From: Flavobacteriales bacterium
Lineage (GTDB): Bacteria; Bacteroidota; Bacteroidia; Flavobacteriales_E; Vicingaceae
Length of the DNA: 64,000 nucleotides
Direction: 5' to 3'
Assembly: GCA_905339165.1 (NCBI GenBank)
Contig: CAJPFH010000005.1
Location: 62,001-126,000, forward strand
Below, piece by piece: positions 40,197 to 51,714 of this stretch. The position numbers were made by a program, and so were the translations under genes. The notes beneath the pieces were generated by a model. That model was not told the origin of the DNA. It made no database searches and was given only the letters and a program-made list of their open reading frames with translations. Within the stretch, counting starts at the first letter, position 1. Every line of letters begins with the position of its first letter.

Positions 40197-41030
40197 TCAA
40201 GATTTTTTAGTCTTATACTTTTCTCCTAAAGAATTTATTTTGGGAATACTTTTGTCTACAAAACTTTCCCATTCTTTACTTTCTATAATATCTTGTTTGA
40301 AATTATCTAATTTTATTGCCATTGTTTGAAACAATTTACCTCTCTTTTTTCTTACTACATTGATAGTTTTTTGAACTCCAATCGTCAACTCTTTAATTGA
40401 GTTTACATCTTTAGAGAATCTCTTTTTTTCTTCTCCTTTATTCCACCATTCACTTTCTAAAATTGAGGATAGATTAAAAGATATCCAATGAATACAATTC
40501 AATTTTTCTTTTATATCATCATAATCTTTTTTAGACATATCAGTTGGAGTGTTTCCTCTTAAAACATCTACATATAATCCCTTTTGTCGATTATTTTCAA
40601 TATCTCTATAGAATTCTATTTTTTTACTAAAAGAATCTATTTTTTCGACAAGCCAGCTCTTAAGTTGCTTAATATTTTCTGGGTTATTAAATAACTCTAA
40701 CATTGCTTCAGGTCTAGGGTCTTTCTTAATAAGAATAAGCACTTTTTCTAAATCCTTTATTATTTCATTAAAACACTCTACAAAAAAACCAATGTAATGT
40801 CTAAAATGGTGTTGTGTGAAAATATATTCAATTTCATTTAAATTACCCAATGGCACTCCTAAATCAATCAGTTGAAGCGTAACTGCTTTACTTCTTTCTT
40901 CAAATGCTGTAACCAAAATAGAACTAGCTGTTCCATAACTACCTTTGTTGGCTAGATGTTCTGCATCATCTAACTTATCCTTTGCATTTTTAATACATTT
41001 TTCAATTTCTAATTTTATATTATAATTCAT
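40197..41030 (-). CDS. AbiV-like abortive infection protein
   Basis: The 277-residue all-helical protein carries an AbiV-type N-terminus: NAKDKLDDAEHLANKGSYGTASSILVTAFEERSKAV, where family members show a helix with DA.xL, G.Y..A and EExxKA. Known AbiV blocks phage propagation in Lactococcus by inhibiting translation. The C-terminal two-thirds (HHFRHYIGFFVECFNEI onward) is longer than classical AbiV (about 200 residues). It is the last gene of the five-gene island operon and overlaps the previous gene by 11 nt. I call it AbiV-like; it could also be a more distant HEPN-type helical protein. Confidence 0.55.
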   Translation of the reverse strand: MNYNIKLEIEKCIKNAKDKLDDAEHLANKGSYGTASSILVTAFEERSKAVTLQLIDLGVPLGNLNEIEYIFTQHHFRHYIGFFVECFNEIIKDLEKVLILIKKDPRPEAMLELFNNPENIKQLKSWLVEKIDSFSKKIEFYRDIENNRQKGLYVDVLRGNTPTDMSKKDYDDIKEKLNCIHWISFNLSSILESEWWNKGEEKKRFSKDVNSIKELTIGVQKTINVVRKKRGKLFQTMAIKLDNFKQDIIESKEWESFVDKSIPKINSLGEKYKTKKS

Positions 41031-41508
41031 TCAACATATTATTTAAAGCAAACTTGCTTAACTCTGGAATTGCCTTGGTAAATACTTTAATTTCCCAATT
41101 AGACAAGTGTTTAAACCGTTCGCCCTGGTCATTATTAATAAAGATGTAATCATCTGGCTTCGCCAGTTGATTGGATGGTATTAAATATAACACCGGCTCC
41201 ATTTCTTTCATAAACAATACCAATGCCACCCAAAGGTTGTCTTTTGGTTCTCCTAAAACAGTTTTTGTGATTTTAACGCTCCGTTCTGTTTCTAAATTAA
41301 TAGGTTGTAAAAACAATTCGTGATAATTACCTGATTTGGTTTTGACAATAAAATCTACTCCCTCTCTCCCACTTTGACCTGGTGTTAGTTGTTTTTTATG
41401 GTCAGGTCGAATTTCGCTACGCTTCATTTCATTTTGGAAGACATCTAACCTAGCTCTCATTAACTCAAGCTTGGTAAAGTGTTGGGCGTATTTGTAGAGT
41501 TTATCCAT
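41020..41508 (-). CDS. small PD-(D/E)XK-fold-like protein, probably catalytically inactive
   Basis: The 162-residue protein follows the layout of small PD-(D/E)XK nucleases: an N-terminal helix (KLELMRARLDVFQ), a strand pair G-VDFIVKTKSGNYHELFLQP, then LWVALVLF and VLYLIPSNQL. D52 is in the expected place, but where nucleases have (E/Q)xK this protein has F66-L-Q68, so two catalytic positions look lost. It may bind DNA or a partner without cutting. It overlaps its neighbours by 8 and 11 nt. The family call is my pattern match only. Confidence 0.45.
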   Translation of the reverse strand: MDKLYKYAQHFTKLELMRARLDVFQNEMKRSEIRPDHKKQLTPGQSGREGVDFIVKTKSGNYHELFLQPINLETERSVKITKTVLGEPKDNLWVALVLFMKEMEPVLYLIPSNQLAKPDDYIFINNDQGERFKHLSNWEIKVFTKAIPELSKFALNNMLNEL

Positions 41509-44500
41509 GTAATAACTTAAGTTTCTCTTTCACTTGCTTAATAGTATATGACTGTGCTCGATTCATGTAGAATTGTTCTTCTAATCGTTCAATCGTATGC
41601 AATATATATTTGACGTTCTGATTTAGTGCAGACTTCTCCTCAATGAATTTCTTTAAACTTGATTTTACCTTTTCAAGATTTTCTTCCGATTCAAGCCCAA
41701 TATTGTAAAAAGCTCCAAGTACTTGTGAATTAAATCGATCAAAATGGTCTACCTTAATTTCCTTTAAGTAACTTAACTCTAACAAGTCTAAAAGGTAAGG
41801 AATTGCATCAACGCTTTTGATACTATTCAAACATAATGCACGACTTGTTTCAATATCCACTTTTACATTTTCCTTTACCCAATCTACATAGATTTTTAAC
41901 CCCTGTAAATTTTGCAATGTTACAAGCACTTCAGCTGCTTTACCTATTTCTTCAGAATTATTTTCTTTTTTTAAGGTATCAAGTAAATATTTTTCTACAA
42001 ATTGTTCTTGACTGTTAGCTTTCAATTTATCAATGATATTCCATTTAATTAAAGAATCCGATTGATCTATTATTGTTTTAAGGCTCTCTATATTCTTTGT
42101 GAATTCAAAAAACACATCTAAAAACTCTCTTCTTTGATAGTCTTTTCTTTTTGTATTAACTATTTCATTTAAAATAAATGGATAGCTTTTTTCCACCTTG
42201 TTTTGAGCCAAATATTTAATATGATTTTTAAGTACTGAATTGTCAGAAATACCTTTTTGTATATTTTCTAACATTCTGGTTACAATATCATCATTATCTA
42301 ATTTTGAAATAAGATACTCAATTCCTACCCAATCATTGCCTTCAAAAAAGTCAAAGGAAAGCATATCTAACAATACATCTTTAGGATGTTTAATATCAAA
42401 TCTTCTTGAAAAATACCAAACGTACATTGCCATTGTTTTGAAGGTAATATTCCGATCTTCATTAACTTGGATAGCCTCTTTGAAATTTACCTTTCCAACA
42501 TTTTGGTTACACCAGTTTACAATCCACTGTTTTTGACTTTTAGTAACTTCAATTTCCTTATGATTAGTAAGATATTCATAGATAAGAGAAGTTCGATACC
42601 ATTCTTCATTTCCTTCCTTTTCAAACCAATTCATTACCTTATTTTTACTAATATGTTGCCCAGTATTAACAAAGCTTCTTAATAGTTGCATTGCAACGCC
42701 TGAATAATTTTCTTCTATGTCAATCCACTTATTATTAACTTTTCTAATCTCAAACAATTCATCAAAAGAAAGTGTTTCTTTTTGTTCTTTTTCAAAAACT
42801 CTTATTGTAGCCTTCTTGAAAGCATCCCCATCAAAAAGTAATTCAAAATCTTTTTTTAACTTAGTTTTCCGCAAAGCATCATGATCAATTCTCTCAGGTT
42901 CCTTTATTTCGACATTTGTTTTTTTATGAATCAACTCCTTAAAGTTGTTCTGGTTTTCATTTCCAACCCAACCCATATCAAAATAAAGGTTTTCAATCTC
43001 TTTATTAGTTACATTATGTTTTTGATATTCATCAATAATAAATTGCATCAATTTAGGGGATATTAGTTTTGCTATTGCTAATGACTTATTTCTTTCCTTA
43101 TCTTCTATTGACTCCCAAATCTGATAAAAAGCTTTCTCTTTTGTGTTTGTCTGCTCAAAGAATTGAAGAATCAAATTGATTTTTTCCATTCGAAAACCTC
43201 TTATATCTTTTTGAAACCAGGTTAACATACTGTTGAAAACAGTATTATCAATATTGTATGCAATGACAGCATTTGAAATAATTACTTTCAAAACTTTTTC
43301 GATGTCATACCCATAATCAAACCTTGTGCTTTCTGCTATGTATTCCGTTAGCCGTTTAATTCCCTCTGGAGATTTTATGTTTTTAACACACTCCTTTAAA
43401 TTCCAGCCTTCGTCCATTAAAGAAACATCACTCCGTTCACCACTTATTTTTTTATCAATTAACTCGTACCCTTTTGTCAAATATTCTACATTCGATTCCA
43501 AAGCTTCCGATTTCAAAAGAATTGCATACATAGCAGCCCTTATATATTGGTTCTTTTGATTTCCGACTACCTGCATCAGTTTATCAATTGTATTCTTGCT
43601 ATTCAATCCCGCCCATTTTAGAGCGTAAATTGCTGAATGTATAAAGTTGTAATCATCTTGGTTGTTTTCAATTTGTTTTAATAAAAGTTCTTCGACTTCG
43701 ACTTTCATATATTGATTATCCATTTCAAAATGTCCAATTAAGCTAAACACATTTATCTTAACCGTTCTCGTATTTTCAGTATCTTTAAGTTCGTCAATTA
43801 AAAACTGTAAATTGGTGTCTGATTGACCAAAACGAGCTAACTCTTTATCACTAAATTTATTTGAGCGAATCCAAACATCATGTTTTTTATAATAGTTGAA
43901 TATTCCTTGAAAAACTTGATTTCTTAAATCTTCAGGTACTTTATCTGGTTCAAATTTTACAATTATTTCTTTTTCATTATCTAACATCCAGTTTAATAAT
44001 TTTTTAAATAATTCATTATTGATTTCCAATATACTAAACAGAAAAGATAAAGTATTAACCCAACTTGGTATTAGTTTTTTAAACATTGGCTCAAATGCAA
44101 TGAACTTAATTACTTTGTTGTAATCAAGTAGAGATAAAGCCTTAGCTGCAAGAAATTCCTGAATATTGTTGTGTTCAAATTGCCAAATATATTCCTCACC
44201 ATCTTTCTTTTTAAATGCCGTGCAGTACTTTAGTGAATTAAATTCATCACTTGAAATTAATTGTAAAATTTCTGATTCTTCGATTTGATTCTTTGACAAA
44301 ACCTCCATGCTTAGTGCAACCCGTTGCAATAAAGCAACTATTTCTTGCTTTTTACTTCTTAATTCAACAGTAGTCTTAAAATGGTCTTGGTCAAATTCTA
44401 TTCGGTTCAATAAAAACATTTCATATAATTCCGACCTATTTAAAGAAAGTTTTTTCTCCCTTGAATAATGTTCTGATAACAGCATTAAAAAGAAAGGTTT

Positions 44501-45739
44501 AGCGATTAAGTCAGATACATTTTTATCAAATGTTTCATCTATGAAATTATCAGCAAAAGAATCAGAATATTTCTTACTATAGTACTCCCTTGCTTCTGGG
44601 ATATTTATATCGTTAATAAGATATGGTTCAAATTCAGACAATGTGCCAACTGAATTATTTATAGGTAATTCATAGAAGTTAGTTCGACAAGAAATTAATA
44701 TTCTTATTTCTTTATATTTTTCTGAAAAAGCATTAATCTGTCTTACAACCGTATTGAAGTGGGTAGGTTGAATCTCATCTAAACCATCCAAAATTAAAAC
44801 TAATAGATTATTAGGTATTTTTTTCCATATTTCTGACAGAAAATCTTCAATTCCTTTTTCTGGCGTATAAGAATTAAGCCTTTGAAATAATGGGATTAAA
44901 GGTGATTTATCTTCATTTAACTTATGAAATAAGCGTATTAATTCTGTAGATTTCCCCGATCCTGCATCTCCGAGAAGAATGATTCTTTTCTTTGTGAAAA
45001 TTAATTGTTCAAGATTTTGTTTTTCTGTCTCGAGAAAAGGTAAACTTCTTTTTTCTTTTAATGATGTAAAATGAGATATTGTTCGAAATACAAATGAATC
45101 AGGTATCTTTTCAATCTCCGATTGAGAATCTAAAATTTCTAATTTTATTTTATCATTTACAAAAGATTCCTTTCTCTCAATATTGACACCCATACAAAAT
45201 TGAGTAGCTTTTTTCCAAAGTAAATCGGTAATTGTTCTTTCAAAATCTCTTTCATTATCAAAAGAATGGCAGAATCCATTAGGTTCTTGCTTTTTTCTAA
45301 AATCAATTACTTTGCTTAATTCTGCATTAACATCTGATTCGAATAAATCAGTCGTTAGTTCTTTTTTAAAGAATAAATACATTTCAGGTATTTTGTGGGA
45401 GCTCCAGTTTCCATAAGCTAAACAGAATTCTCTATACGTGCCAGACCCGTAGTCCTGACCAGTTTCAGGATTAATAATTCCTGTATTTGAACCAAATTTT
45501 TTCCACCATATTCCTAAATAAATATCGTAAACCCCTAACAAAGATTCTATTTCCTCTTGTGGATTCACAGCGAATTTTACAATTAACTTACTCCATTCTT
45601 TGACTAAGTATCTAACATCACAATTAATTGTAGCTAATTGAGAATTTATTCTCTCACAAATTTTTTCAACTATCTCCTTTTCTGTATTTACATCACTCGG
45701 ATTAGAAACAAAAACTTGTATTTCGGTTGGTGATCTCAT
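41501..45739 (-). CDS. DUF4062-NACHT-helical repeat STAND NTPase (NLR-like defence protein)
   Basis: This 1412-residue protein has three parts. The N-terminus (1-115) resembles DUF4062, a TIR-like fold: IQVFVSNPSDVNTEKEIV, DIYLGIWWKKFG and GSGTYREF. A NACHT NTPase follows, with Walker A GDAGSGKST (257-265), Walker B LILDGLDE (315-322) and SCRTNF (350-355). The remaining 900 or so residues are helical, HEAT-like repeats that probably sense a ligand. This layout matches bacterial STAND/bNACHT anti-phage proteins, in which repeat-domain binding triggers NTPase-driven oligomerisation and N-terminal effector action. It overlaps the restriction gene by 4 nt (ATGA) and the next gene by 8 nt. Confidence 0.85.
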   Translation of the reverse strand: MRSPTEIQVFVSNPSDVNTEKEIVEKICERINSQLATINCDVRYLVKEWSKLIVKFAVNPQEEIESLLGVYDIYLGIWWKKFGSNTGIINPETGQDYGSGTYREFCLAYGNWSSHKIPEMYLFFKKELTTDLFESDVNAELSKVIDFRKKQEPNGFCHSFDNERDFERTITDLLWKKATQFCMGVNIERKESFVNDKIKLEILDSQSEIEKIPDSFVFRTISHFTSLKEKRSLPFLETEKQNLEQLIFTKKRIILLGDAGSGKSTELIRLFHKLNEDKSPLIPLFQRLNSYTPEKGIEDFLSEIWKKIPNNLLVLILDGLDEIQPTHFNTVVRQINAFSEKYKEIRILISCRTNFYELPINNSVGTLSEFEPYLINDINIPEAREYYSKKYSDSFADNFIDETFDKNVSDLIAKPFFLMLLSEHYSREKKLSLNRSELYEMFLLNRIEFDQDHFKTTVELRSKKQEIVALLQRVALSMEVLSKNQIEESEILQLISSDEFNSLKYCTAFKKKDGEEYIWQFEHNNIQEFLAAKALSLLDYNKVIKFIAFEPMFKKLIPSWVNTLSFLFSILEINNELFKKLLNWMLDNEKEIIVKFEPDKVPEDLRNQVFQGIFNYYKKHDVWIRSNKFSDKELARFGQSDTNLQFLIDELKDTENTRTVKINVFSLIGHFEMDNQYMKVEVEELLLKQIENNQDDYNFIHSAIYALKWAGLNSKNTIDKLMQVVGNQKNQYIRAAMYAILLKSEALESNVEYLTKGYELIDKKISGERSDVSLMDEGWNLKECVKNIKSPEGIKRLTEYIAESTRFDYGYDIEKVLKVIISNAVIAYNIDNTVFNSMLTWFQKDIRGFRMEKINLILQFFEQTNTKEKAFYQIWESIEDKERNKSLAIAKLISPKLMQFIIDEYQKHNVTNKEIENLYFDMGWVGNENQNNFKELIHKKTNVEIKEPERIDHDALRKTKLKKDFELLFDGDAFKKATIRVFEKEQKETLSFDELFEIRKVNNKWIDIEENYSGVAMQLLRSFVNTGQHISKNKVMNWFEKEGNEEWYRTSLIYEYLTNHKEIEVTKSQKQWIVNWCNQNVGKVNFKEAIQVNEDRNITFKTMAMYVWYFSRRFDIKHPKDVLLDMLSFDFFEGNDWVGIEYLISKLDNDDIVTRMLENIQKGISDNSVLKNHIKYLAQNKVEKSYPFILNEIVNTKRKDYQRREFLDVFFEFTKNIESLKTIIDQSDSLIKWNIIDKLKANSQEQFVEKYLLDTLKKENNSEEIGKAAEVLVTLQNLQGLKIYVDWVKENVKVDIETSRALCLNSIKSVDAIPYLLDLLELSYLKEIKVDHFDRFNSQVLGAFYNIGLESEENLEKVKSSLKKFIEEKSALNQNVKYILHTIERLEEQFYMNRAQSYTIKQVKEKLKLLHG

Positions 45740-48597
45740 TCCTTTATCATTTTAACACAATCCTCACTCACAAATTCCTTTTTGTTTTTCACACATTTGG
45801 GTAGTCCAGGGCTTTGTACTTCCTCTCCATTTTCAATTTTTGTAGCAACTTCAAAATTTAGTTCCAATAATTGAGTGAGTAAATCTTTTCGCTTTCCAAA
45901 ACCATAAGCAGCCAATACAGCATCATCCAGTTTTTGATGTAAATTTTTTAATGGATTTGAGCCGGGTTCTTCTAATATTCGATAAACATCACGTAAAGTA
46001 AAATTATGATTCATCATTATTTCATTTCGTTTATCCCTCAACTCTTTGGCTGCATTGGCAACTTTTTTAACATCATTTATTGTGGGATTTTGTGGAAACG
46101 GAAAAGTGTCCCAAACTGTATTGGTTGTATATCTAAAATCTCCCTTTAATGTTGAGCAATTTGCCTTCCACCATTCCCAATGTGCAGAAGACTGAATTAT
46201 TCCAAAAGTATAATCATCCTCAAAAGGAAACACCATTAAGGCTGCATTAGGATTTATTTCCGTAGAAATAAATTCAAAAGTTGCTCGTTTTGAAACCTGA
46301 GGTACTGAAATAAATCTTTTTAAGAAACTAATAGCTAATAACATATCTTCTCGTCCATAGGAAAGCTTCCACCATTTGTTATAAAAATTGATGTGGTGTT
46401 TATTCACTTTTGCATTTGGATTCTTTTCAAGTGCAGATTTGTTTTCAGCTTCTTGTTCTTTGGCTCTCGCTTCTCTTTCAGGTAAAACAGTTTGTTTAAT
46501 TATTTCGTAAGGCTCTTTGTAACTGGCAGCTTCTATTACATCCATCAGCGTAAAATCAATTACATACCTATCGGGCTGACTTCTCTTTTTACCAACCAAC
46601 ACATCGCCTATCAAAAATGGCTTAACAACATTTGCGTTTCTGCTATCCTTTTGAATTAATTCCTTTCCCTTCGTAGTTGAAAGTAAGAATCCCTTGTGTC
46701 CATGAGTTTGACCTTGAAAAACAGATTTAGGATTTTTATTACATTCCAGTACTTTAGATTTGCTTACATCAATTTCAATAGTCAAACTACTGTTAATTGT
46801 ATCAACGATATATTCTATTTGTTCGCCTTTGCTATCTTCAATGTATAGTTTCTTTTTTCCTTCATAATCTCCTTTTCTCCAATTGACAATGGAAACAAAA
46901 ACAACTGCATCTCCAGACCATGGTTGAGATGAAATGGCGTTAAAAATAACTCCACCATTATTTACAATGTAATCTAAACTCCCTTCTCGGCTGTAATTTT
47001 GCCGAATGGTATTTGTACCCACCAATCCGGCATAACCTCCTTCTTTTAATTCTTTATGTGCTTTGTAATACCAATATACACAGTAGTCTGCTCTGCCCGG
47101 AACTTCTTCATAAGCACCCCAAAGTTTATTCATGTACTCAATACCATATTCTTCCTGCATTTTGTTTTTGCTTTGATATGGCGGATTTCCTATGATAACG
47201 TCAGCACTTTTCCACTCTGTAAATAATGCATCTGAAAATAGAATATTATCATTCATATTGTCCAAAGGCAAAGTTTCTTCCATGTGAAAACCAAGCCCAA
47301 TTTGCATAGTATCTACCCAATCTTTGGTTTCTTTTATAGCAATTTCTTTAGCCAACATAAGGGTTACTTTTGCTAACTCAACAGCAAACGGATTGTAATC
47401 TATACCATGAAACTGTTTTATACTCACAATGGATTGCGTTCCGATTTCTCCTGCACTTTTTGGAAAATCAACATGTATTTTATTCAGCAATTCCATTTCA
47501 ATCCGCTTCAATTCTCGAAATGCCACATACAAAAAGTTTCCGCTGCCACAGGCAGGGTCTAAAACTTTAAATTCAGCAATATCCTTTCTCAATTGCTTCA
47601 TGTCAGCAAGTGTTTTAGCTTTTGCTATTTTTTCTCGCCAAGGTTGTATAATGGTAGGGTGAACAATTTTTAAAATATCTAATTCAGTTGTAAAGTGTGC
47701 TCCAAAAGCATGTCGGGCTTCTTTTCCCATACTGCTTTGAAAAATAGTACCGAAAATAGCAGGGTTTACTTTGTTCCATTTTTGGGATGCTGCTTTATGT
47801 AGTTTGGCTAATTCATCATCAGTTAACTCCATTGCCTCAGGTTGTGCAAATAAACCTCCGTTAAAATATTGCACATCTTTAAACCGTCCACCTCTTGCTT
47901 GTGCTTTTGTATTCATTTGCTGAAACAACGCTTGTATTAGGTCATAAGCATTGCCCTGTCCATTTTTACAATCCAACAAAATTTGAGTAAAAATATCTTT
48001 TGGTAACAATTGGTAATCTTCCGCAAACATGGTAAAGATGGATTGCAAGATGAAACGCTGAGCACGTTCACTATCTTCTCCCCTAGCAATTAAGGAATTA
48101 AAAACCTTTGCAACTAAATCGGCTGTTTCTCGGGTAACTTCTTCAAGGTTATTCTCGAATACAGGAGTTGCCGCCTTCGGGTACATAAAGTTAAAGGCTG
48201 TGTAACGGTCTGGTAAGTCTTTAATCTTAATGCGGTCGAGCGGTTCATCTTGTATAGCAAAATCATAAATAATAAACTCATTGAAATTGCAGAGAATTGA
48301 ATATTTTGGCTGATTAGGTCTTAATTTCCACCAATAATCAAAAATCTGGCTACGGTGGCTTTGGAGTTGAGCTCCTTTTTTCTTCATTTCAATAAGAACA
48401 CGTTCACCCCAAAGCAAATCAGCAAATCGTGTATTCTTTTTTGATTTTACTCTAAATTCTAAAGTTGCACCTGCTTCTTTATATCCTTCATGTCCGAACG
48501 CCTGAAAAAGTCTATCGCAAAATACTTGTGCCTCTCCTTTTTCATCACCATCTAAAGTGGCAACATATTTTACAAATTGTTCAACTTTTTCTTTCAT
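45736..48597 (-). CDS. MmeI-like type IIL restriction-modification enzyme
   Basis: This 953-residue single-chain enzyme combines cleavage, methylation and recognition. The N-terminal nuclease site is D60-x9-E70-x-K72 (FADLLWGERVLIEMK), the same spacing as MmeI. After a helical connector comes an N6-adenine methyltransferase with motif I DPACGSGNF (347-355) and NPPY (471-474), then a target-recognition region (about 600-850, with FPFPQ) and a helical tail. MmeI itself is 919 residues. BREX PglX is longer and lacks this N-terminal D-ExK site. The start lies 17 nt inside the XRE gene and the stop overlaps the NACHT start. Confidence 0.87.
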   Translation of the reverse strand: MKEKVEQFVKYVATLDGDEKGEAQVFCDRLFQAFGHEGYKEAGATLEFRVKSKKNTRFADLLWGERVLIEMKKKGAQLQSHRSQIFDYWWKLRPNQPKYSILCNFNEFIIYDFAIQDEPLDRIKIKDLPDRYTAFNFMYPKAATPVFENNLEEVTRETADLVAKVFNSLIARGEDSERAQRFILQSIFTMFAEDYQLLPKDIFTQILLDCKNGQGNAYDLIQALFQQMNTKAQARGGRFKDVQYFNGGLFAQPEAMELTDDELAKLHKAASQKWNKVNPAIFGTIFQSSMGKEARHAFGAHFTTELDILKIVHPTIIQPWREKIAKAKTLADMKQLRKDIAEFKVLDPACGSGNFLYVAFRELKRIEMELLNKIHVDFPKSAGEIGTQSIVSIKQFHGIDYNPFAVELAKVTLMLAKEIAIKETKDWVDTMQIGLGFHMEETLPLDNMNDNILFSDALFTEWKSADVIIGNPPYQSKNKMQEEYGIEYMNKLWGAYEEVPGRADYCVYWYYKAHKELKEGGYAGLVGTNTIRQNYSREGSLDYIVNNGGVIFNAISSQPWSGDAVVFVSIVNWRKGDYEGKKKLYIEDSKGEQIEYIVDTINSSLTIEIDVSKSKVLECNKNPKSVFQGQTHGHKGFLLSTTKGKELIQKDSRNANVVKPFLIGDVLVGKKRSQPDRYVIDFTLMDVIEAASYKEPYEIIKQTVLPEREARAKEQEAENKSALEKNPNAKVNKHHINFYNKWWKLSYGREDMLLAISFLKRFISVPQVSKRATFEFISTEINPNAALMVFPFEDDYTFGIIQSSAHWEWWKANCSTLKGDFRYTTNTVWDTFPFPQNPTINDVKKVANAAKELRDKRNEIMMNHNFTLRDVYRILEEPGSNPLKNLHQKLDDAVLAAYGFGKRKDLLTQLLELNFEVATKIENGEEVQSPGLPKCVKNKKEFVSEDCVKMIKE

Positions 48598-48787
48598 TCG
48601 CTTTTTCTATTAAAAGGTCTTTTGCATTTACTTCAAGGATTTCAGCAATTCTATACAGAATTTCCAAACTAGGTTGCGTTCTGTTTTGCACATAAGAGTT
48701 AACCATATTAAAACTTTTACCCAACTTTTCGGCTAACCAAACTTGTTTAATCCCCTTTTCTTCCAGTACTTCTTTGATGCGGTTCAT
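48581..48787 (-). CDS. XRE/Cro-type controller of the island operon
   Basis: The 68-residue protein is one helix-turn-helix domain: IKQVWLAEKLGKSFNMVNSYVQNRTQPSLEILYRIAEILEV. It resembles the C-proteins that time expression of restriction-modification genes. It is the first gene of the minus-strand operon and overlaps the restriction enzyme start by 17 nt. A 15-bp palindrome directly upstream of its start (48790-48804) is a good candidate for autoregulation. Confidence 0.88.
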   Translation of the reverse strand: MNRIKEVLEEKGIKQVWLAEKLGKSFNMVNSYVQNRTQPSLEILYRIAEILEVNAKDLLIEKANERKS

Positions 48788-48789
48788 TG

Positions 48790-48804
48790 CTTCAATTTTT
48801 GAAG
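48790..48804. promoter_or_regulatory. candidate controller operator (palindrome)
   Basis: CTTCAA, 3 nt, TTGAAG is a perfect 6-bp inverted repeat 2 nt upstream of the XRE start codon, downstream of the likely -7 element. A matching half-site TTGAAG occurs at 48875-48880 next to the divergent promoter. The position suits an HTH dimer that represses both promoters; binding is inference. Confidence 0.45.
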
Positions 48805-48806
48805 TG

Positions 48807-48814
48807 GAAAAGTA
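48807..48814 (-). promoter_or_regulatory. likely -7 element of the defence operon
   Basis: On the minus strand this reads TACTTTTC, 7 of 8 matches to TAnnTTTG, 19 nt before the XRE ATG. The candidate operator lies between it and the start codon. Confidence 0.4.
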
Positions 48815-48869
48815 CAGCTAAATTTTTAATTTATCTCGAAATTTAAGATGTTTTTTCAAAATCAAGTCG

Positions 48870-48877
48870 TACATTTG
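48870..48877 (+). promoter_or_regulatory. promoter -7 element of the divergent gene pair
   Basis: TACATTTG, a perfect TAnnTTTG box, ends 4 nt before the ATG at 48882, which predicts a leaderless or nearly leaderless transcript. It overlaps a TTGAAG half-site also found in the controller palindrome. Confidence 0.5.
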
Positions 48878-48881
48878 AAGC

Positions 48882-49511
48882 ATGACAAGAAAGACATTTA
48901 CTATTAATAGCAATGAGGAAAAAAGCCTTGATGCTTTAGGGATTAATAAAATATCAATTAAAAGAATTTCTTCTAATTCTGATATTCATTCTCTTTTTTC
49001 CCCAATTGAAGTAACTATTAGTAAGCCTACTGGTGAAATCAAGAAGTGGTATATTCATGCTACAACTTATTTTTCAAATACAAAACCAGGAATCATTACA
49101 GATATTGAAATGAATGAGATTATTACTTCATGTCAAAATGCGGTTCTTAAAATTAATAATACAATGGAACATGCTCCATTTGTATTAACTATTGAATATG
49201 AAGAATTGCTTGATTTAATAGATGTTCTGGTAATCTATGTTAATAATCAGTCAGAAGGAAGGACGTATAGTCTTCATCCTTCTAGCAAACTAGAATTAAT
49301 GTCAAAATTTCCTGATGCAAAACCAGTTGGTCAACTTTACACATCTTACGAGAATGAACAGCTTTTTCAAATGCAACATGGGGATATTCTAAGACCATTT
49401 GTTCAAGGAATTACAAATCTTACTGATAAAGAGTTATTACGAATAGGCAGAGTAGATTTTATTGATTCTAGAACAAATGAGCTATTAAGACAAATGACTT
49501 TTGACTTATGA
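48882..49511 (+). CDS. island protein of unknown family, 209 residues
   Basis: I do not recognise this protein. It is soluble, with no signal peptide or membrane segment, and mixes strands (PIEVTISKPTGEIKKWYIHA) with helices (EMNEIITSCQNAVLKIN, ELLDLIDVLVIYV). It is transcribed away from the controller/restriction operon, and its stop overlaps the next gene, a PD-(D/E)XK nuclease, by 4 nt (ATGA), so the two likely act together. It could be a nuclease partner, inhibitor or antitoxin; that is inference. Confidence 0.75.
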   Translation: MTRKTFTINSNEEKSLDALGINKISIKRISSNSDIHSLFSPIEVTISKPTGEIKKWYIHATTYFSNTKPGIITDIEMNEIITSCQNAVLKINNTMEHAPFVLTIEYEELLDLIDVLVIYVNNQSEGRTYSLHPSSKLELMSKFPDAKPVGQLYTSYENEQLFQMQHGDILRPFVQGITNLTDKELLRIGRVDFIDSRTNELLRQMTFDL

Positions 49512-49984
49512 GCAAAATGCAAAACTTATATTTAGGTCAAGCTGGTCATTTGCTCGTAATGTCAGAACTATTATACAGGGGTTGGAATGTTGCAATACCT
49601 CAAGTCGATAGAGGTGATGATATTTTTGTTGTTAAAGATGCTAATGGTGACCTTAAAAGAGTTCAGGTGAAAACTGCGGAAGGGAAAAAACGGTTAAAAG
49701 GTTATTCAGCAAAGTATAATTTGCGAATGGACCAACTACAAACTCCATTTACTCCAGATGTTCATTATGTCTTTGTTATGAGAAAAGATGATGGTTGGAA
49801 CAAATTTATTGTTATAGATAGAAGTGTCTTATTTAATCACCGCATAATTGATAAAGTTGGTTATGAGAAAGATGGAACTCTTCAACTTCAAATCAGCATT
49901 CATGATAATACTTCCAAGTGTTCCAAAGTTGATTTCTCAAAATATCTGAACGATTGGAGTAAATTTCCAGTTATAAATCATTAA
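49508..49984 (+). CDS. small PD-(D/E)XK endonuclease-like protein
   Basis: The 158-residue protein has the layout of the DUF4365-like nuclease group: helix with Glu20 (LLVMSELLYRGWNVA), strand with an acidic pair (VDRGDDIFVV, 33-42), then the strand RVQVKT with Q53-x-K55, the (E/Q)xK motif, and later strands VHYVFVMRKDD and KFIVIDRSVLF. The catalytic residues appear intact, unlike the related-looking protein at 41020-41508. It is coupled to the unknown gene before it. Substrate and role (restriction or abortive nuclease) are unknown. Confidence 0.65.
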   Translation: MSKMQNLYLGQAGHLLVMSELLYRGWNVAIPQVDRGDDIFVVKDANGDLKRVQVKTAEGKKRLKGYSAKYNLRMDQLQTPFTPDVHYVFVMRKDDGWNKFIVIDRSVLFNHRIIDKVGYEKDGTLQLQISIHDNTSKCSKVDFSKYLNDWSKFPVINH

Positions 49985-50012
49985 CATATTAAGGCAAAGT
50001 TAGATGATTTGG

Positions 50013-50089
50013 GCGTGCCCCAAAGGGTCGGGCTATTCGCTATATCTTTCTGTGAAAAACAGAAAGGATGCCGCTTCTATCCCTCACGC
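50013..50089. repeat. structured intergenic element with nested hairpins
   Basis: GCGTG at 50013-50017 pairs with CACGC at 50085-50089; inside, CTTTCTG and CAGAAAG (50046-50066) form a clean 7-bp hairpin, and a GGG/CCC pairing lies near the 5' end (TTTGGG, CCCAAA at 50008-50024). I recall similar GGGCGT...GGGTCGGGCT...ATCCCTCACGC sequences scattered in other Bacteroidota genomes; this memory is unverified. It may be a repeated extragenic element marking the island edge. Confidence 0.45.
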
Positions 50090-50286
50090 AGCTAAAAAAT
50101 AAGTAAAGCAAAAAGACTTTACCCATTTTTTGCTAAAAGAAAGCGGTATGTAAGAGTTGCTAATTTGCTTAAATTGGAGTGAAACGGAAATCATGAACTC
50201 CTATTTAAAAAAATAGAAAAGTGTGAATAAATGAACCGCAAATTACCAACCCTTACATGAATTTTTTTAATAATTTTTTTTTGCCC

Positions 50287-50312
50287 TTTTTAAAGAATTA
50301 ATTCTTTAAAAA
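50287..50312. terminator. 26-bp palindrome, possible bidirectional terminator
   Basis: TTTTTAAAGAATT and AATTCTTTAAAAA form a perfect palindrome between the island nuclease and the convergent MOSC gene. It is all A/T apart from one G/C pair per arm, so it may be a weak terminator or chance A/T structure. Confidence 0.4.
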
Positions 50313-50369
50313 CCTAAGCTATATTAACATAATGCAATCCATTATATGACATTTTAGAGAATTTTAATT

Positions 50370-50807
50370 CTATGTAATTCTCACATAATCCCCCTCAGAA
50401 ACAACGCCTTCTGTAATTACTTTGGCATACACACCAGCTCTAAAATCTCTAGATAATACTTCTTTTAAACCTATATAAACTTCGTTAAATTCATCGGAAG
50501 GTATTATTTTTCCGGTAATCTCTATTTTAAAATTACCGATGGTTAGCATTTTTCCAATACTACTTTTTAAATCGACACCTCGCAATAACAAATTAGCATT
50601 TGTTTTGGTCCAGTGTAACTTCTGTCCCAAATCGTTGCAGACATCATTCCATGCTTCTTCTGATAGAATCAATATTTGTTTTTCCGTATCTAGTTTACTC
50701 CTAAAATCATCGGCTATACCAAATCTAAAAGAAACTTTTGCCGAAGCATATACGGTTATATCCCCTGTGGGCCGACTGATTCCGGCTATTCCTATTACTT
50801 TTCCCAT
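50370..50807 (-). CDS. MOSC domain-containing protein
   Basis: The 145-residue protein shows the MOSC pattern: LHWTKTNANLLLRGVDL, then IGKMLTIGNFKIEITGKIIP and DFRAGVYAKVITEGVVSEGDYV. MOSC proteins carry sulfur or act on molybdenum-cofactor-linked reductions such as N-hydroxylated compounds. The conserved Cys that usually follows the EITG strand (PC) is replaced here (IPSDEF), so the sulfur chemistry may be altered or absent. It is the first ordinary gene right of the island. Confidence 0.82.
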   Translation of the reverse strand: MGKVIGIAGISRPTGDITVYASAKVSFRFGIADDFRSKLDTEKQILILSEEAWNDVCNDLGQKLHWTKTNANLLLRGVDLKSSIGKMLTIGNFKIEITGKIIPSDEFNEVYIGLKEVLSRDFRAGVYAKVITEGVVSEGDYVRIT

Positions 50808-50847
50808 GTTTCAAAACTACGTATTTTATAGTATTTAATTTTTACTA

Positions 50848-50876
50848 TTTGTGCAAATGAGTAAAATGTATCTTTG
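50848..50876 (+). promoter_or_regulatory. Bacteroidota-type promoter of dapD
   Basis: TTTG at 50848-50851 and TATCTTTG at 50869-50876, 17 nt apart, match both consensus boxes exactly. The dapD ATG follows 19 nt after the -7 box. It is the best promoter match in the window. Confidence 0.7.
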
Positions 50877-50895
50877 TATCAAAATATAAATTAAA

Positions 50896-51714
50896 ATGAC
50901 AGAATTAAGAGCCCAAATAGAAAACGCATGGGATCATCGCGAATTGCTTAAAGACTCTAAAATACAGATGGCTATACATGAGGTTATCGAAAAACTAGAG
51001 AAAGGTTCTATAAGGGTGGCCGAGCCGGCAAGCGATGGTTCTTGGATGGTAAATGAATGGATAAAAAAAGCAGTGGTAATGTACTTTCCTATACAAAAAA
51101 TGGAAACTCTGCATGCCGGCCCTCTTGAATTTTATGATAAAATGAAATTAAAATCAAATTATGCAGCATTAGGAATTCGTGTTGTGCCTCATGCAGTGGC
51201 TCGTTATGGGGCATTTATTGCCTCGGGGGTTATTTTAATGCCATCGTATGTAAATATTGGTGCATATGTAGATAGTGGCACCATGGTAGATACATGGGCC
51301 ACCGTAGGCTCTTGTGCTCAGATTGGAAAAAATGTGCATTTAAGCGGAGGGGTTGGAATTGGTGGCGTACTAGAACCTTTACAGGCAGCTCCGGTTATTA
51401 TAGAAGATAACTGTTTTATTGGTTCGAGATGTATTGTAGTAGAAGGTGTAAGAGTTAGAAAAGAAGCTGTGTTAGGGGCGAATGTGGTGCTTACCCAGTC
51501 TACCAAAATAATTGATGTTACAGGGAATTATCCTGTTGAATACAAATCCGAAGTTCCGGAACGGTCGGTTGTTATACCGGGTTCCTACACCAAAAAATTT
51601 ATGGCTGGCGAGTTTCAAGTACCTTGTGCTTTGATTATTGGACAACGCAAACCAAGTACCGATTTAAAAACATCTTTAAACAATGCATTACGCGAGTATA
51701 ATGTTGCGGTGTAA
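50896..51714 (+). CDS. dapD: tetrahydrodipicolinate N-succinyltransferase
   Basis: DapD succinylates tetrahydrodipicolinate in lysine and meso-diaminopimelate synthesis. Markers: MTELRAQIENAWDHRELL and EPASDGSWMVNEWIKKAV at the N-terminus, the left-handed beta-helix of hexapeptide repeats (PSYVNIGAYVDSGTMVDTWATVGSCAQIGKNVHLSGGVGIGGVLEP covers several turns) and the C-terminal VPCALIIGQRK. Length 272 is standard. Confidence 0.96.
   Translation: MTELRAQIENAWDHRELLKDSKIQMAIHEVIEKLEKGSIRVAEPASDGSWMVNEWIKKAVVMYFPIQKMETLHAGPLEFYDKMKLKSNYAALGIRVVPHAVARYGAFIASGVILMPSYVNIGAYVDSGTMVDTWATVGSCAQIGKNVHLSGGVGIGGVLEPLQAAPVIIEDNCFIGSRCIVVEGVRVRKEAVLGANVVLTQSTKIIDVTGNYPVEYKSEVPERSVVIPGSYTKKFMAGEFQVPCALIIGQRKPSTDLKTSLNNALREYNVAV

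Follow-up and report, generated by a model that had tools for sequence, protein, structure and literature searches.

A conserved two-gene unit of a compact PDDEXK_5-type nuclease and an orphan partner protein that may be a genome-protection or selfish module

What is the role of a small nuclease gene that overlaps a gene of no recognised family at the edge of a restriction operon? The question arises from a 64,000-nucleotide stretch of a Flavobacteriales contig (the window), in which two adjoining genes, A and B, were singled out. The original prediction took B for an intact PD-(D/E)XK nuclease and A for its dedicated partner, and proposed that the two, facing away from the restriction operon, make up a new defence or toxin–antitoxin module. 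The coordinates, the 4-nt overlap of A and B, and the nuclease call are all correct (Table 1). The pair does face away from the operon, whose HTH regulator, type IIG restriction-methylase, and NACHT-like protein are all encoded on the minus strand and flank the pair on one side; a 145-aa gene and dapD flank it on the other. The term "divergent pair" is loose, since A and B are themselves in tandem and only the pair and the operon diverge. The ATGA that joins the stop codon of A to the start codon of B suggests translational coupling of the two genes. TTGAAG/CTTCAA half-sites at 48790, 48799, and 48875, in the gap between the HTH gene and A, were considered as a shared operator and rejected; an inverted repeat with equal arms appears in 199 of 500 mononucleotide shuffles.

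Table 1 Positions of the A–B pair, its parts, and its surroundings (window positions unless a locus is named).
Feature	Position	Strand	Remark
Exchanged segment (NACHT, type IIG, HTH, A, B)	41514..49986	.	Comparison with G001
NACHT-like protein	41501-45739	-	
Type IIG restriction-methylase	45736-48597	-	PADLOC REase_MTase_IIG, 1330 bits
HTH_3 regulator, first gene of the divergent restriction operon	48581..48787	-	Context, outside the module
ORF A, 209 aa, orphan partner protein	48882..49511	+	C-terminal domain and N-terminal extension
A N-terminal extension, residues 1-110	48882..49211	+	Modelled at low confidence
A conserved ~95-aa domain, residues ~113-209	49218..49508	+	Alignment; block pLDDT ~83-96
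ATGA overlap, A stop / B start, 4 nt	49508..49511	+	
ORF B, 158 aa, single-domain PD-(D/E)XK nuclease	49508..49984	+	PDDEXK_5, PF11645
B Glu20 codon, acidic residue of the first helix	49565..49567	+	Nearly invariant
B Asp38 codon, putative catalytic Asp	49619..49621	+	Compared with DREN D41/Q60/K62
B Gln53-Val54-Lys55, putative QxK active-site motif	49664..49672	+	
Synthetase-upstream loci	L010 5691-5714, L009 5507-5714, L063 5177		

B scores 28.3 bits against PDDEXK_5, above the Pfam gathering cutoff of 26.1, and the other ten aligned B homologues match the family at E <= 0.1. The AlphaFold2 model of B (mean pLDDT 87.3) has a confidently predicted PD-(D/E)XK fold. Membership of PDDEXK_5 is thus supported both by the gathering score and by the fold with its intact active-site motif. 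Among solved structures, the model is most similar to the homing endonuclease I-Ssp6803I (PDB 2ost; Z 12.7, 3.1 Å, 128 residues, 19% identity), followed by the DREN nuclease chains of SPARDA, an anti-DNA defence system already known (9qcc; Z 10.1), and by archaeal Hjc resolvases (Z 9.8–8.1). Foldseek relates B to the SPARDA nuclease with an E of 3.5e-05, and a profile sequence search of the PDB returns 2ost as the sole match, a weak one (E 0.27).

Across 11 homologues, D37/D38, V54, and K55 of B are invariant, and E20 and Q53 are nearly invariant. In accordance with the call that B is intact, the Asp and the Lys of the D...QxK motif are conserved without exception and the Gln nearly so. The DREN nuclease of NbaSPARDA has the catalytic residues D41, Q60, and K62; its tetramer is active and its monomer is not (PMC12205087). 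By analogy, the Asp and the QxK motif of B probably form its active site. Either Asp37 or Asp38 may be the catalytic residue, since both are invariant.

No model in PADLOC or NCBIfam matches B. PHROG 5018, a family of unknown function, matches residues 7–103 (1.8e-13). A 214-kb IMG/VR contig encodes a distant B-like PD-(D/E)XK protein of 129 aa without A (L020 5947-6336).

A is of unknown family, as had been proposed; no match reaches the cutoff in Pfam, NCBIfam, PADLOC, or PHROGs. A Pch2_N match (18.9 bits) lies under the 27-bit cutoff and was rejected. In most relatives, the partner is a protein of 95–103 aa, equivalent to residues ~113–209 of A in the window. The N-terminal extension is missing from most partners and is common to A and a lone homologue in genome G065. 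This homologue is a full-length protein of 201 aa (L012/L026 1080-1685, minus strand) encoded without an adjacent B, beside secreted-protein-like genes. Comparison of the A model with solved structures, which bears on the C-terminal part since the N-terminal half is modelled poorly, yields nothing convincing (best Z 3.7 for ZrgA-like zinc proteins and 3.6 for a MutS chain). No recognised DNA-binding domain is found in A. The charge of A is neither consistently acidic nor consistently basic, and therefore does not point to an inhibitor or to a DNA-binder. Charge complementarity between A and B was considered as well and shows no consistent pattern.

Some copies of A are irregular. Contigs C100 and C640 of genome G530 carry extra copies (L040 and L041) without an adjacent B, one of which is cut by the contig end while the other is a remnant. 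In genome G235, the A frame (L022 117-422) has no ATG, GTG, or TTG at the usual start and B is intact; this copy of A may be damaged or may use a rare start codon.

Were the pair confined to the window, the original prediction would be weakened. A co-occurrence search of other genomes removes this objection, since A adjoins B at 15 loci besides the window, 14 of them tandem (L002-L006, L008-L010, L013/L021, L022, L025, L062-L064) and one convergent (L007, a Gemmataceae MAG in which A lies downstream of B). At the 14 tandem loci, A lies directly upstream of B, mostly with an overlap of 4–20 nt or abutting it. The recurrence of the same neighbouring pair indicates that the adjacency of A and B is not due to chance. 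In a phylum sample of 395 genomes, B occurs in six and A in five, all five of which are among those six (hypergeometric P 8e-11, assuming independence and ignoring relatedness). In addition, the distances between A proteins correlate with those between B proteins over 15 pairs (Mantel r 0.73, 0/5000 permutations); common descent of the species could by itself account for part of this correlation. In a sample of 199 genomes covering the phylum to which the Gemmataceae genome belongs, B is present in that one genome only. The exceptions to pairing are G309, which has B but no A, G065, which has A but no B, and G530 with its extra copies of A.

A small upstream gene that overlaps a nuclease gene would also be expected of an addiction toxin–antitoxin module, in which A serves as the protein antitoxin to a toxic DNase, B, the two being kept by post-segregational killing with no specific defence role. 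The sporadic distribution over many insertion sites fits this explanation as well. However, 72,556 plasmids contain no match to either protein, A alone and B alone both occur, the pair is rare (about 1–2% of sampled genomes), and the antitoxin would be one in which no DNA-binding domain is recognised. We therefore regard addiction as an unlikely explanation. Phage records likewise gave no match to A or B, and no close relative of B was found in phage genome records.

A–B travels as a bare two-gene unit in scattered Bacteroidota genomes. In Arcicella, the pair is positioned 5 nt past ccmC and 4 nt ahead of a CcmD-family gene, and the corresponding empty site, with ccmC and ccmD adjacent and without the pair, is found in G505, G106, and G235. 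Two genomes of one genus carry the pair at different sites (L009 in G897 and L064 in G930). The neighbours that could be recognised at other loci are mostly housekeeping genes. The proposal that the nuclease has its own dedicated partner is thereby well supported; the pair is conserved, inherited together, co-diverging, and mobile as a unit. At three loci, an aminoacyl-tRNA synthetase gene (valS, aspS, and metG, named by eye) lies directly upstream of A, a post hoc observation that may be due to chance.

The most serious rival follows from these varied insertion sites taken together with the structure of B, which is nearest to a homing endonuclease. A–B could be a selfish homing-type cassette, in which B cuts cassette-free DNA, repair copies A–B in, and A is an accessory for specificity or repression. 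B has the size and the full-length fold of I-Ssp6803I, bare inserts occur at varied sites even within one genus, and empty sites exist. On the other hand, no tRNA gene is found in the window or at 14 loci, no Rfam intron family is found around the window copy (48500-50900), the one copy searched, and the insertion sites share no common target evident by eye. The partner gene is also at odds with the usual homing enzymes, for which, to our knowledge, a partner is normally unnecessary.

Selection on the two genes speaks further against homing. The two Arcicella genomes give dN/dS values of 0.029 for A and 0.039 for B, and of 0.065 and 0.025 for the flanking ccm genes; those for L009/L064 and L062/L022 were discarded, as their synonymous sites are saturated or their alignment is out of frame. 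A and B are thus under strong purifying selection in Arcicella. Selection this strong on both genes suggests a benefit to the host. On balance, we doubt that A–B is a homing-type cassette.

A benefit to the host could also come from a host DNA-processing pair, in which B is a structure-specific, Hjc-like nuclease of repair or recombination and A its cofactor. The Hjc structures among the next best matches of B, the housekeeping neighbours, the constitutive-looking operon position in Arcicella, and selection as strong as that on the ccm genes all agree with such a role. Nevertheless, the pair is missing from about 98% of sampled relatives, indicating that it does not serve a core function. It is also patchy and inserted at varied sites, and the QxK motif and the best structural matches point to I-Ssp6803I and DREN rather than to Hjc. 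A role in host DNA processing is therefore very unlikely.

The surroundings of the window copy suggest a link with defence. Homology to G001, a genome of the same genus, breaks near window position 41513 and returns at 49987, so that the right edge of the exchanged segment lies about 2 nt past the stop codon of B. The counterpart of the segment in G001 (L050 1686-10975) consists of another type IIG, an AAA_13 protein (PDC-S06), a HATPase protein, and PDC-M19A/B. These homology boundaries indicate that A–B in the window is part of swapped cargo together with the restriction–modification and NACHT genes. The two genes at the left border (40197-41030, 277 aa; 41020-41508, 162 aa) are kept in G001 with 95% and 80% identity, respectively; they are assigned to no family and have no PADLOC match. 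A Flavo-1 RNA (RF01705, 63.7 bits) is located at 50022-50097 on the minus strand, just right of the slot border. Its sequence is conserved in G001, and the slot border therefore adjoins an RNA gene. A perfect 26-nt palindrome, TTTTTAAAGAATTAATTCTTTAAAAA, at window positions 50287-50312 is also present in G001 (L050 11272-11297) and is possibly a terminator.

The defence-island setting that was originally proposed thus applies to the window copy, which occupies a defence-exchange slot, but not to most other copies, which lie among housekeeping genes. One further locus, L002, adjoins a HEC-03-like candidate. Since the neighbours elsewhere, apart from this locus, are mostly housekeeping genes, the link to defence is suggestive only.

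The reading that we prefer, to which we give somewhat less than an even chance, is that A–B is a self-contained module in which a compact I-Ssp6803I/DREN-type DNase, B, is controlled by a small partner, A. Defence is its leading but unproven role. A and B would be produced from one message by coupled translation. A would then bind B and keep it inactive or, judging from DREN, would permit an active B multimer to form only on the right cue. The cue may be foreign or damaged DNA. Once released, B would cut DNA, and the invader would be restricted or the cell stopped. The existence of A alone and of B alone counts against a controlled DNase with a role in defence. The broader proposal of a two-gene defence or toxin–antitoxin module is favoured by the slot placement and by the likeness of B to DREN, but not by the housekeeping neighbours or by the absence of PADLOC matches. 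A more specific version, in which A–B is a minimal anti-DNA immune module that dispenses with Argonaute and NTPase and in which the ~95-aa A is the sensor and assembly switch of a DREN-like B, seems improbable to us.

The nuclease is of a kind already known, while the libraries searched describe neither the partner family nor the two-gene unit. Literature searches, which covered mostly open papers, gave no description of the A–B pair. A–B may be a genome-protection or selfish module that is not yet described. If it is a working module, the orphan family would be a control partner for a nuclease fold known to date from homing endonucleases and SPARDA. The pair takes up about 250 codons in most genomes, which would rank it with the smallest protection systems built on a nuclease. 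It would then offer a simple two-protein test of how a DREN-type nuclease is switched on without Argonaute. It would also be an example of a module from a defence slot that is equally able to settle inside housekeeping operons.

Several known systems invite comparison. The Hjc Holliday junction resolvases (2wj0 and 1gef; Z 9.7–9.8) share the PD-(D/E)XK fold and a similar size with B. However, they are archaeal core recombination enzymes, whereas B occurs sporadically and together with a partner. The layout of type II toxin–antitoxin systems, a conserved small gene adjacent to an effector gene, is found at 16 loci including the window. I-Ssp6803I, a group I intron homing endonuclease of the PDDEXK_5 family, resembles B in its length of ~150 aa, in its fold over the full length, and in the positions of the Asp and the QxK motif. 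In contrast to I-Ssp6803I, to which its sequence similarity is weak, B has a dedicated partner gene and does not lie beside a tRNA gene. Group I intron homing is recognised by an intron-encoded gene or an adjacent tRNA-type target; neither is seen here, the Rfam search covering the window copy. SPARDA is recognised by an APAZ–DREN fusion and a neighbouring short Argonaute gene. No Argonaute gene adjoining the pair is recognised, B is a single domain without APAZ, and A is not an Ago. Nevertheless, the nuclease domain of SPARDA DREN-APAZ (9qcc, 9jsz, and 9qbp) and B have the same fold and the same D...QxK active site, and each of the two nucleases is paired with a second protein.
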